Origin: Natrialba aegyptia DSM 13077
GTDB lineage: Archaea; Halobacteriota; Halobacteria; Halobacteriales; Natrialbaceae
Length of the DNA stretch: 64,000 nt
Assembly (NCBI RefSeq): GCF_000337535.1
Contig: NZ_AOIP01000003.1
Span: 3,914-67,913 of the forward strand
Direction: 5' to 3'
Part shown: positions 46,222 to 50,223 of the stretch, piece by piece
Layout: each line of letters begins with the position of its first letter
Position numbering within the stretch: position 1 is the stretch's first letter
The notes under the pieces: model-generated
The model's input: only the letters and a program-made list of their open reading frames with translations
What the model was told of the DNA's origin: nothing
Database searches by the model: none
Program-made: the position numbers and the translations under genes

Positions 46222-46260
46222 GGCGGGACGTTTATGAGCGAAGCGACCATAGCGTTTGTC

Positions 46261-46782
46261 ATGCTCGTCGACATCGTGCCGGTCGGCAACGTCCCCGCAG
46301 CGGTCAAACGGGCAGCGTCCTCGGCGTTACGATCGGTCTACGACTGCGACGTTTCGGTCACCGATTCCCAGCCAGTGCCGGGCGGGGCGTACGACTCCGG
46401 TCGCGACCAGTATTCCGCAGAGGCGTTCATCCAACTCGCAGAACGCGTCGGTCGCGGGGGGAAAAACATCGCCGTCACGCCACACGACCTTTTCTACCGC
46501 CGTCGGAACTACGTCTTCGGACTCGCCTATCTCGACGGCAGCGGCAGCGTCGTTTCGACCTATCGATTGCAAACCTCGAGCGACGGCGGCTTTTCGAACA
46601 AGAGCGCAGGCGAAATTTTCGAGAACCGCGTCCGCAAGGAAATCGTCCACGAAATCGGCCATACATATGGGCTCGAACACTGCGACAACAACCGCTGCGT
46701 GATGAACTTCTCGCCGACCGTCCGCGAAGTCGATATCAAAGAAGAGAACCTCTGTGGCAGTTGCCAACGCTTCGTTCGCTGA
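46261..46782 (+). CDS. amzA: Archaemetzincin metalloprotease
   Basis: A 173-residue protein with the archaemetzincin active site HEIGHTYGLEHC at residues 130-141 (zinc ligands H130, H134, H140; catalytic E131) and the extra structural zinc cysteines C141, C146, C165 and C168 (RCVMNF, LCGSC). It begins MLVDIVPVGNVPAAVK, the usual family N-terminus, supporting the ATG at 46261 over two upstream Mets. A TTTATG box lies 25-31 bp before. It is presumably a cytosolic aminopeptidase-like protease with unknown natural substrates. Confidence 0.93.
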   Translation: MLVDIVPVGNVPAAVKRAASSALRSVYDCDVSVTDSQPVPGGAYDSGRDQYSAEAFIQLAERVGRGGKNIAVTPHDLFYRRRNYVFGLAYLDGSGSVVSTYRLQTSSDGGFSNKSAGEIFENRVRKEIVHEIGHTYGLEHCDNNRCVMNFSPTVREVDIKEENLCGSCQRFVR

Positions 46783-46920: not shown

Positions 46921-47865
46921 ATGGCAGCAATCGAAACGAACGGAGTTTCGAAACGGTTCGACGAGACTCACGCCGTTCGAGATATCGATCTTACCGTCGA
47001 GAGCGGCGAGGTGTTCGGCTTTCTCGGCCCGAACGGGGCAGGCAAGTCGACGACGATCAATATGCTTCTCGACTTCGTGCGGCCGACAACCGGCGCTATC
47101 TCCATTCTGGGCGTCGACCCGCAGGAACAGCCCCGCGTCGTTCGCCGGCGTACCGGCGTGCTTCCGGAGGGGTACGCCTTCTACGATCGCCTCTCGGGTC
47201 GCCGTCACGTCGAACTGGCCATCGACATGTACGAGAGCGACGACGACCCGGTCGACATCCTCGCTCGCGTCGGCCTGACCGGAGACGAAGAGACTGCCGT
47301 CGGAACCTACTCGAAGGGCATGCGACAGCGCCTCGCCCTCGGTATCGCGCTCGTCGACGACCCCGATCTGTTAATCCTCGACGAGCCCTCCTCCGGCCTC
47401 GATCCGAACGGCATCAGAACGCTTCGAGAGATCGTCCGCGAGGAAGCCGACCACGGGACGACCGTCTTCCTCTCGAGTCACGTCCTCGACCAGGTCGAAG
47501 CCGTCTGCGACCGCGTCGCCATTATGAACGACGGCACCCTCCTGACCGTCGACACCGTCGACGGCCTCCGAGAAACTCTCGATCCGAACTCGACGCTCAT
47601 CCTTTCCGTCGATACGGTTCCCGAATCGGTTTCCCAGCGCCTCGCCGAACTGGATCGCGTCGACACCGTCGCTGTCGATGCCGCCAGTACCGGTCGCGGT
47701 GGAACAATTTCTATCACCTGTACCGACTCCGGCGTCAAATCCGCCGCTATCGGCCGCGTCGAGGACGCCGGTGCAACGGTGACGGACATCGATGTCGAGG
47801 ATTCCTCCCTGGAAGAACTGTTCGCAGCCTATACCGCCTCCCCGTCCGACGGTGAGCCGCGATGA
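46921..47865 (+). CDS. ABC transporter ATP-binding protein
   Basis: A 314-residue ATPase. Walker A is GPNGAGKSTTINMLLDF, the signature is YSKGMRQRLALGIAL, Walker B is LLILDEPSSGLDPNGIRTLR and the switch His lies in TVFLSSHVLDQVEA. A C-terminal ferredoxin-like extension (about 220-314) is typical of CcmA/DrrA-type exporters. It pairs with the downstream permease (4-bp overlap). Exporters of this class move drugs, peptides or lipids; substrate unknown. It lies 0.9 kb from a Tat-exported cysteine-rich protein gene. Confidence 0.92.
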   Translation: MAAIETNGVSKRFDETHAVRDIDLTVESGEVFGFLGPNGAGKSTTINMLLDFVRPTTGAISILGVDPQEQPRVVRRRTGVLPEGYAFYDRLSGRRHVELAIDMYESDDDPVDILARVGLTGDEETAVGTYSKGMRQRLALGIALVDDPDLLILDEPSSGLDPNGIRTLREIVREEADHGTTVFLSSHVLDQVEAVCDRVAIMNDGTLLTVDTVDGLRETLDPNSTLILSVDTVPESVSQRLAELDRVDTVAVDAASTGRGGTISITCTDSGVKSAAIGRVEDAGATVTDIDVEDSSLEELFAAYTASPSDGEPR

Positions 47866-48719
47866 ACTCGGTCGCTGCGATCGCTCGAACCGACATCGCA
47901 GATGCGATCCACTCCCGGACACTCTGGGGTACGACGGGGCTCATGACTGCCCTCGTCGCCATCTCCTGGCTCAGTCTCAGTACCGAATTAGTCGAGCAGG
48001 TAGACACACCGCTGTTGACCGCTATCGACTCGTTCGGTCTCTGGGTTCCGCTCGTCGCGATCGTCCTCGGTTACGAGGCCGTAATCGGCGAACGCGAATC
48101 CGGTCGCATTCGCTTTCTCCTCGGACTCCCGAGCACGCGTCGGGAACTGATCATCGGCAAGTACCTGAGTCGCGTGAGCGTGCTGGTAACCGCGCTTGTC
48201 GCCTCGCTCGGTGTCCTTGCAGTGCTCGTCTTCGTCCGTGTCGACGAAATCCCGCTCGTTCCGTTGCTCAGCGCCGTGATACTGCTCGTCCTCTACGGAC
48301 TTGCGTGGATCGGGATGGCGGTCGGCGTGTCGAGTATCGTCTCGTCGAAAACGCGCGCGGTCGCAGTCGTCGTCGGTCTCTACGCGCTGTTCGGACCGCT
48401 CTGGGGACAGATCGTCCTTCCCGCCTGCGTCCGGTTTGGTGAACTCGTCACGGGGACGACGCAGTCGATCAACCTGACGGGACGGCTCACGTACGCCGAC
48501 GAGCCAACGTGGTTTCTGTACGTGGCCCGTCTCAGCCCGCTCGAAGCCTTCGACGCTGCCCGCTACTACATTCGAGATCTCCTCGAGATCGCGCTGGTGG
48601 GCGGCCAGACGACCGCCGCTCACGGGCCGAATCTATTCGGACTCGCCGTCCTGCTCTGCTGGGCGATCGCGCCCGTCGCTCTCGGCGTTTGGTTCTTCGA
48701 TCGAGTCGATCTCGAGTAA
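47862..48719 (+). CDS. ABC-2 type permease
   Basis: A 285-residue membrane protein with six helices (about 23-43, 60-80, 105-128, 138-165, 175-198, 255-275). The EAVIGERESGRIRFLLGLPS then TRRELIIGKYLSRV segment after TM2 is the typical ABC-2 coupling region. Its start overlaps the ATPase stop (ATGA). Together they form an exporter. A large loop (about 200-255) separates the last two helices. Confidence 0.88.
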   Translation: MNSVAAIARTDIADAIHSRTLWGTTGLMTALVAISWLSLSTELVEQVDTPLLTAIDSFGLWVPLVAIVLGYEAVIGERESGRIRFLLGLPSTRRELIIGKYLSRVSVLVTALVASLGVLAVLVFVRVDEIPLVPLLSAVILLVLYGLAWIGMAVGVSSIVSSKTRAVAVVVGLYALFGPLWGQIVLPACVRFGELVTGTTQSINLTGRLTYADEPTWFLYVARLSPLEAFDAARYYIRDLLEIALVGGQTTAAHGPNLFGLAVLLCWAIAPVALGVWFFDRVDLE

Positions 48720-48825: not shown

Positions 48826-49473
48826 TCAGCAGCCGCAACTGTCCGTGATGATACACTCGCCGTCGTCGCAGGTGTTACACTTTTTCTTGTACCGCCCGAC
48901 GAAACACCAGTCCTCTTCGCAGGCGCAACCGTCGCAGTTGTCGCCGGAACAACTGTCGGCTGACGCTTCGCTGTCGCTTTCGGAGACGGTCAGATCGGAT
49001 TCGAAACGCCGGTATTCCTCTCCATCGGGTGCTGTGTATAGCACGACAGCACCACCGTCTTTCGGGAAGAGAGCGGCCGACGGGATCGCCTCCTCGCCGA
49101 AGCTAACCTGTAGTCGCCCACGGGTGGTGGACGTCGTAAATGCGATCTGCTTGTTTCCATCGGTGTACGTCCGATGGATCTGTCCGTTTTCGTCGAACTG
49201 CTGATTCGGCAATACGTCCAGCGACGCCTCCTCGAGCAGTCCATCCGCCGCCAACCTGCGTAGTAAGCGCTTTCCGCTCCGGACGTCGGTCGGGACTGAA
49301 ACGTCCCGGGATTCGAGGACGACCCCTTCCGCCTTCAGTTCCGAGAGGCCGAACGAAGTCGCTGACGCGCTCGCGGACGTGGCGGAAACCGCTCCGAGAC
49401 CGGCGACGGTCGCAACCGATGATTTGCGAAGCAATGCTCGTCGACTCGTCTGTGTGATGTCATCTTGGGACAT
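48826..49473 (-). CDS. Tat-exported protein with 10-cysteine C-terminal tail (microhalocin-like layout)
   Basis: A 215-residue protein. The Tat signal has R11-R12 (TQTSRRALLRKSSVATVAG) followed by a hydrophobic Ala/Ser stretch. A middle domain of about 130 residues (GRLQVSFGEEAIPSAALFPK, GGAVVLYTAPDGEEYRRFES) shows no family I recognise. The last 41 residues (175-215) hold ten Cys: C175, C180, C183, C185, C190, C199, C202, C207, C213 and C215. Halocin C8 precursors share this order: Tat signal, long N-terminal part that confers immunity, and a Cys-rich C-terminal peptide. The resemblance is in layout; no sequence homology was confirmed. The Met at 49473 is chosen over a start seven codons upstream because a TATA box lies 24-31 bp before it. 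It is convergent with an ABC exporter. Confidence 0.8.
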   Translation of the reverse strand: MSQDDITQTSRRALLRKSSVATVAGLGAVSATSASASATSFGLSELKAEGVVLESRDVSVPTDVRSGKRLLRRLAADGLLEEASLDVLPNQQFDENGQIHRTYTDGNKQIAFTTSTTRGRLQVSFGEEAIPSAALFPKDGGAVVLYTAPDGEEYRRFESDLTVSESDSEASADSCSGDNCDGCACEEDWCFVGRYKKKCNTCDDGECIITDSCGC

Positions 49474-49897
49474 CAATACGTGATCCATCATCAAAGAATA
49501 AAATATTTTCCCAGATTTTTAGGCTTCAACTATCTCTATGTATATAAAATACCGGCCTATCTGTTTACGATAACAAGAATTAGACCAGTTGATTTATTTA
49601 CTATTATCAGAGCGGACACTTTCGGCATTCCTACTCGGACTCGTCTCGGCGAGTTCGTTTTCGAAGCGTGCTCGCGACGCACTTACCTGATGGCGTCGTT
49701 CGATACCGGCCCCGTCGCGAACAAGACTGAACTCTCGGCGTTCAATCCGTCGAGAAGGATGGGACTGAGACTATCGTTCCGGACGATTGATGGGAACTAT
49801 CATCACGAAGCGCGTTTAGCGCCCCGCTCGCTGCGTTTCACACGCGTTCGTACAAGTCGATCGGTGCGGTGTGCGAGGTGTCGTTCTCGGTCACAAC
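49474..49897. other. Intergenic region, AT-rich near the Cys-rich gene
   Basis: 424 bp between the Tat-Cys gene and the winged-helix gene, both on the minus strand. Positions 49495-49615 are markedly AT-rich, unlike the surrounding DNA, and contain the promoter of the Cys-rich gene (TATA 49497-49504). No gene or RNA was recognised in the remainder. Confidence 0.5.
49497..49504 (-). promoter_or_regulatory. TATA box of the Tat-Cys-rich gene
   Basis: ATTTTATT on the minus strand, 24-31 bp before the ATG at 49473; this decides that start over the earlier Met. Confidence 0.5.
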
Positions 49898-50191
49898 TCA
49901 TCCGACTTCCGCCTCGAACGGCCGATTGGGAGGCATCTGTTCGATCAATTCCGTCTGTTCTTTGTACCCCTTGTAGGCCGTAATGGCTATGACTCCCCGT
50001 TCCGTGAGCGTGTACTTTCCATCCGCTTTCATCACTAACCCGTGCTCACTGAGCCGTCTGTGGATGTTGTACACCGTACTCTTCGACACGTCGAGTTCCT
50101 CCGCTAACTCCCGTTTATATTTCGGTGACTCCCGCAGCGACATGAGGGCATCTGCGTGCTGGCAGACGACCGTCACGATCTCATCGCTCAT
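49898..50191 (-). CDS. Winged-helix transcription regulator (97 aa)
   Basis: A 97-residue protein. Residues about 25-75 form a winged helix: YKRELAEELDVSKSTVYNIH is the HTH with recognition helix, and LSEHGLVMKADGKYTLTERG is the wing. A short N-terminal helix and an acidic C-terminus complete it. It is probably a small dimeric repressor or activator. Its promoter has a near-palindrome TACATTATAGTGTA overlapping the expected start of transcription, which suggests autoregulation. The neighbouring genes are the Cys-rich exported protein and a methyltransferase. Confidence 0.85.
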   Translation of the reverse strand: MSDEIVTVVCQHADALMSLRESPKYKRELAEELDVSKSTVYNIHRRLSEHGLVMKADGKYTLTERGVIAITAYKGYKEQTELIEQMPPNRPFEAEVG

Positions 50192-50198
50192 ACTGGAT

Positions 50199-50223
50199 TA
50201 CATTATAGTGTACGAACATAAAT
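50199..50223 (-). promoter_or_regulatory. TATA box and operator-like near-palindrome of the winged-helix gene
   Basis: ATTTATG (complement of 50217-50223) lies 26-32 bp before the ATG at 50191. TACATTATAGTGTA at 50199-50212, a 14-bp near-palindrome with one mismatched pair, sits between it and the start. Its core ATTATAGTGTA recurs exactly at 58394-58404. Confidence 0.5.

Follow-up and report, generated by a model that had tools for sequence, protein, structure and literature searches.

A predicted Tat-exported precursor with a ten-cysteine tail in Natrialba aegyptia represents a diversified haloarchaeal family with a halocin C8-like plan

The gene at 48826..49473 (minus strand, stop codon counted) of the window, that is, of the whole stretch of 64,000 nucleotides of Natrialba aegyptia DNA analysed here, encodes a predicted Tat-exported precursor of 215 amino acids. 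Its family is large, unnamed and very diverse, and in it a conserved N-domain precedes a cysteine-rich tail. Our preferred reading, to which we give slightly better than even chances, is that of a two-part precursor: a protein that would be exported by the Tat route, and from which a disulfide-bonded peptide would be released to act antagonistically, with protection provided by an adjacent ABC pair, by the N-domain, or by both, in a system separate from halocin C8.

The precursor, recognised from its open reading frame and its family of homologues, consists of three parts. The twin-arginine signal region (49357..49473, minus), delimited from the sequence and the alignments, carries the RR pair at residues 11-12 and is hydrophobic to about residue 38; the pair is invariant in the family alignments A1 and A4, as expected of a Tat signal such as halocin C8 family members bear, and the Tat models TIGR02811 and TIGR01409 match the precursor weakly. 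The N-domain follows (residues ~45-166; 48976..49341, minus); it is free of cysteine and was defined by an HMM made of N-domains only, which matches across the superfamily. The last part is the tail (48829..48951, minus), 41 residues with ten cysteines, proposed as the mature peptide from its sequence and its cysteine parity. These cysteines occupy positions 175, 180, 183, 185, 190, 199, 202, 207, 213 and 215, and there are none elsewhere; about 130 residues in the middle of the protein are thus devoid of them, and finding ten within 41 residues has a p of ~1e-12 against a background of 0.8%. Their spacing is 4-2-1-4-8-2-4-5-1 and includes CxC and CxxC motifs. With every cysteine paired, the calculated mass of the tail is ~4.44 kDa, and its calculated pI is 4.1; an acidic pI is usual for haloarchaea, and here it gives no pointer to membrane activity.

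A preliminary description of this DNA had reported the Tat signal, a middle of about 130 unassigned residues and ten cysteines in the last 41 residues, with exactly this spacing, and all of it was borne out. The middle is indeed without assignment: searches of Pfam, NCBIfam, PHROG and PDB with the window precursor returned nothing apart from weak Tat-signal matches, and the same kind of search with 37 relatives likewise gave no family, the PDB profile matches being confined to the signal region. A model of the N-domain built from the single sequence contains a helix and beta strands, at low confidence (pLDDT 46). No conserved cleavage motif was found ahead of the tail.

How far does the family extend? 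Searching 391 genomes of the class with the single sequence gave ~15 relatives bearing the tail. A profile of 13 sequences (A1) reached many more and had matches in 255 genomes, in most of which the Tat signal alone was covered; these weak matches were left out, and loci were extracted around the longer profile matches only. Signal and cysteine bias were excluded as sources of similarity by a profile of the N-domain from 16 close orthologues, from which signal and tail had been removed. With this profile, 37 remote members match in their N-domains at 13-51 bits, while shuffled controls (20 per member) did not exceed 7.6 bits, nor reversed ones 4.1 bits; by these sequence comparisons, the conserved N-domain is homologous throughout a large haloarchaeal family. 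Three further members in loci already extracted were added by a profile of the wider family, and there are at least 55 members with the homologous middle domain and the cysteine tail, all of them from haloarchaea in the samples searched. The matches listed for a phylum sample of 217 genomes fall without exception within the same order, and the viral contigs and plasmids searched yielded no relatives. The search of named genomes matched Natrialba taiwanensis (DSM 12281) alone, because the family has no short conserved patterns. It had been proposed to check whether homologues keep the cysteine tail while the middle domain varies: the tail is kept, but it is the middle that is conserved, and the loops and spacing of the tail that vary.

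Another question concerns the state of the cysteines, which may be joined in disulfides or may hold a metal. Throughout the family they sit within the last 28-72 residues, and the mature proteins have between 4 and 22 of them; the number is even in each of the 52 non-redundant members (p ~4e-16 for the 51 members with at least six); among other cysteine-containing proteins of the same loci, taken as a control, it is even in 50 of 85. Members found later (L140, L136, L111 and L227; L numbers denote loci), counted by hand with the residues ahead of the start methionine excluded, are also even. On the tree of the N-domain the number shifts at least 27 times, and no living member has an odd count. 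The spacing is scarcely ever repeated (52 patterns in 57 proteins). Distant pairs have N-domains of 19-29% identity, and the non-cysteine residues of their tails are 7-16% identical in most cases, near chance; among near relatives, the tail is conserved at least as well as the N-domain. Constant cysteines with variable loops are, at the sequence level, a pattern typical of disulfide peptides. The tail, with its predicted 4.44 kDa and a cysteine number that is even like that of its relatives, would, if released, fit a microhalocin-like peptide, which should be exported, be below 10 kDa and have paired cysteines. The always-even number also provides an easy criterion in searches for more members.

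The main alternative of the preliminary description was a metal-binding tail, which on an exported protein could for example be metallothionein-like or of the Zn(Cys)4 type, and the CxC and CxxC motifs are what one would look for in such a tail. A metal tail should show a number of cysteines that is not tied to pairs, or four of them per metal. It is disfavoured because all 52 counts are even while just 23 of the 51 members with at least six cysteines have multiples of four; moreover, the Tat route ends in an oxidising exterior, and the loops are hypervariable. The parity, together with the changes in number, argues for disulfides, so that this alternative is weakened and now appears highly improbable.

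The nearest precedent for the general plan is halocin C8, for which Tat exports the precursor ProC8 (283 aa) and maturation yields HalI plus the 76-residue HalC8 (PMC11509114). Like ProC8, the members of the family have a Tat signal, a cysteine-free N-terminal part and a cysteine-rich C-terminal peptide, usually with ten cysteines; some HalC8 homologues also share with them a neighbouring membrane protein, F4 (described below), and in L040 a locus with an ABC pair. Unlike in ProC8, the N-domain is of another, non-homologous kind and TIGR04449 is absent, and unlike HalC8, which has 76 residues and is hydrophobic, the tails have 28-72 residues, are hydrophilic and vary in scaffold. The halocin C8 domain model TIGR04449 (69 positions, cut-off 24 bits) and the Halocin 8-like N-terminal domain PF22862 match neither the window precursor nor any of the 37 aligned members, although the former does match HalC8-like genes in L040 and L160, and hhalign, comparing the N-domain profile of the family with that of HalC8 precursors, gives a probability of 0.3%. 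On these grounds the precursor was rejected as a halocin C8 family member; the alike three-part layout, and the presence of a halocin C8 domain gene at L040, notwithstanding, we regard true membership as the least probable of all the readings considered. In L040 (8309-15705, 7.4 kb), a family member is found together with F4, an ABC pair and another Tat protein, the latter with TIGR04449 (E 5e-6), and this cluster lends itself to testing whether partners are shared. The family and the halocin C8 systems have a plan and some partners in common, with no demonstrable ancestor, and the precursor probably works like that of halocin C8, by analogy and though non-homologous to it. The microhalocin-type system suggested earlier consequently stands as a plan, Tat export and a disulfide-rich tail being strongly supported by the homologues, but not as membership in the halocin C8 family; the plan is supported because the N-domain is conserved, the tails are diversified, the cysteines are even in number and the ABC partner is conserved. 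Halocin-like systems were reportedly predicted among uncharacterised archaeal families by Makarova et al. in 2019, and some members of the present family may already have been predicted in that survey.

Other haloarchaeal precursors differ in what is released. The extracellular protease HlyR4 activates halocin H4, no such protease is reported to be known for HalC8, and HFX_0892 frees an active N-terminal alpha-helical peptide (PMC12893001); the word cysteine is absent from the main text of that paper, hence no cysteine tail is described there for HFX_0892. Like the present family, halocin H4 and HFX_0892 have secreted precursors, and an extracellular serine protease activates theirs once they have left the cell; unlike the N-terminal helical peptide of HFX_0892, the peptide proposed here is the C-terminal cysteine tail.

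The precursor has a partner of its own. Convergent with it lie an ABC ATPase of DrrA/lantibiotic-protection type (46924..47865, plus; ABC_tran E 2.9e-28) and an ABC-2 type permease (47862..48719, plus; ABC2_membrane_2 E 2.5e-34). As in LanFEG and BcrAB systems, the ATPase scores on TIGR01188 (drrA, E 2e-69) and TIGR03740 (lantibiotic protection, E 9e-51), and one ATPase goes with one or two ABC-2 permeases (L035, L036); unlike in those systems, it is below both curated cut-offs, and its 172.7 bits against the 309.75 bits of TIGR03740 place it outside LanFEG proper, so that the pair is assigned, from sequence, to the general antibiotic-protection type and no finer. An ATPase/permease pair adjoins 10 of the 16 close orthologues, a count in which the loci are partly non-independent and some of them served to train the detection profiles; it is absent nearby from the other six and from most remote members, and directly adjacent in the remote members L111 and L142. 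The layout varies: convergent in the window, L034 and L039, divergent in L035-L037, L041 and L044, on the same strand in L038, and 2 kb off in L040. The permease tree groups 11 of 12 precursor-linked permeases in a single clade (support 100/99) that leaves out the paralogues of the own genome; the ATPase tree is less resolved. The own genome, of 4.6 Mb, has five ATPases of this score class, the other four without a cysteine-tail neighbour; five in a genome of this size puts the chance of finding one inside 3 kb of any given gene under 1%. The preliminary description had seen in the pair a converging exporter. The convergent pair is real; its role as the exporter is probably mistaken, because the precursor already bears a Tat signal, and the pair probably serves self-protection or efflux.

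How could such a system work? The precursor would fold in the cytoplasm and leave through the Tat route; its acidic Ser/Asp/Glu linker would then be cut outside the cell by a general protease such as halolysin; in the own genome, S8 subtilases are encoded by seven genes. Cleavage would free a peptide of ~4.4 kDa with five disulfides that would most likely act against competing haloarchaea, an antimicrobial activity that we infer from the features described above. Self-protection would come from the ABC-2 pair, LanFEG- or BcrAB-like in role, while the N-domain may also, or instead, be protective, as HalI is in halocin C8. Counting against an antimicrobial peptide are the lack of a cleavage motif, the patchy occurrence of the ABC pair, the missing F4 at the window gene, an N-domain that is non-homologous to HalI and the acidic tail.

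The same anatomy would suit a secreted disulfide peptide that serves as an intercellular signal, or pheromone, with the winged-helix gene upstream on the same strand (49898..50191, minus; HVO_A0261_N, Pfam E 3e-15) acting in the response; in N. taiwanensis this small regulator, correctly noted before, has disappeared along with promoter and Tat signal. However, tblastn over 74 loci gave two weak matches to it, so that the gene is not conserved, and there is no linked receptor gene; the diversity of the tails, and tandem paralogues with unlike tails, suit antagonism better than a shared signal. We consider a pheromone unlikely, and equally so a disulfide-rich secreted protease inhibitor, or another protective surface protein, whose tail is never freed. 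Disulfide-rich tails are frequent among inhibitors, and haloarchaea secrete subtilases, for which the S8 genes of the own genome are again of note, but such a function leaves unexplained both the association with the ABC pair and the co-location with a halocin C8 domain gene.

If the two-part precursor is viewed across the whole family, a broader picture can be drawn, which we consider somewhat short of an even chance: a large, hitherto unnamed haloarchaeal arsenal of Tat-exported, defensin-like disulfide mini-proteins, with one conserved N-domain and rapidly diversified scaffolds of 4-22 cysteines, freed extracellularly for antagonism, each equipped with its own protection system and of an origin independent of halocin C8. 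Haloarchaeal antimicrobial peptides of known sequence are, to our knowledge, very few. Were the picture true, one recognisable N-domain with dozens of disulfide scaffolds would be a search handle for many more peptides, archaea would evolve defensin-like peptides through the Tat pathway, that is, by folded export, and the specific ABC partner would make self-protection testable.

In one relative, the gene has lost its upstream flank. Between precursor and regulator lies an AT-rich intergenic region (49474..49897), read from the sequence as the promoter region, with a TATA-like box at ~49541-49551 on the minus strand that was picked out by eye. AT-rich DNA at 49495-49615 had been said to fit acquisition; this is weak, and was set aside, as a promoter region is the simpler account and the N. 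taiwanensis locus is syntenic. In that species (L034/L195), one clean deletion of 819 bp, equivalent to window 49390-50208, takes away the winged-helix gene, the promoter (49474-49897 included) and the Tat signal, while the rest of the precursor is ~94% identical and in frame; the flanks are syntenic on both sides, with the ABC pair and the precursor remnant at the same place. As read from the sequence, the deletion is one that silences an otherwise well-preserved orthologue. An archaemetzincin-like metalloprotease gene (window 46237-46782) adjoins the ABC pair, in a stretch kept in N. taiwanensis; none was seen at other family loci, and it is probably unrelated to the precursor.

Decay is not confined to N. 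taiwanensis. Truncated or broken copies of the family occur in L037, L105 and L221, and neighbouring paralogues with unlike tails in L110, L120, L135 and L136. The patchy distribution, the decayed copies and these tandem paralogues fit what would be expected of conflict genes. In L220 (2661-3050), a frame of 130 aa has the N-domain and the Tat signal and no cysteine tail; it may result from gene breakage or be an immunity-like copy that stands alone.

A last point concerns F4 (A2 family; L038:10014-10823 and others), a haloarchaeal membrane protein whose start reads PEYTGxxRCxxCT and which has a C-terminal domain of cysteine pairs; Pfam, NCBIfam and PDB gave no match for it. Several precursors have an F4 gene in their neighbourhood, as have HalC8-like genes in L148, L153 and L160; the window gene has none. 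F4 was rejected as a dedicated partner and kept as a lead: members of its family, numbering one to ten per genome, occur in 358 of the 391 class genomes, most of them with no cysteine-tail neighbour, and its proximity to HalC8-like genes counts as supportive only, because F4 is common in haloarchaea. Tat-signal proteins with hydrophobic cysteine-rich tails of other types were also seen, in L202 (8413-9378), L204 (1260-2165), L160 (11813-12886) and L223 (1593-2513), those in L202, L204 and L160 beside or near F4 genes; they are possibly further precursor families.
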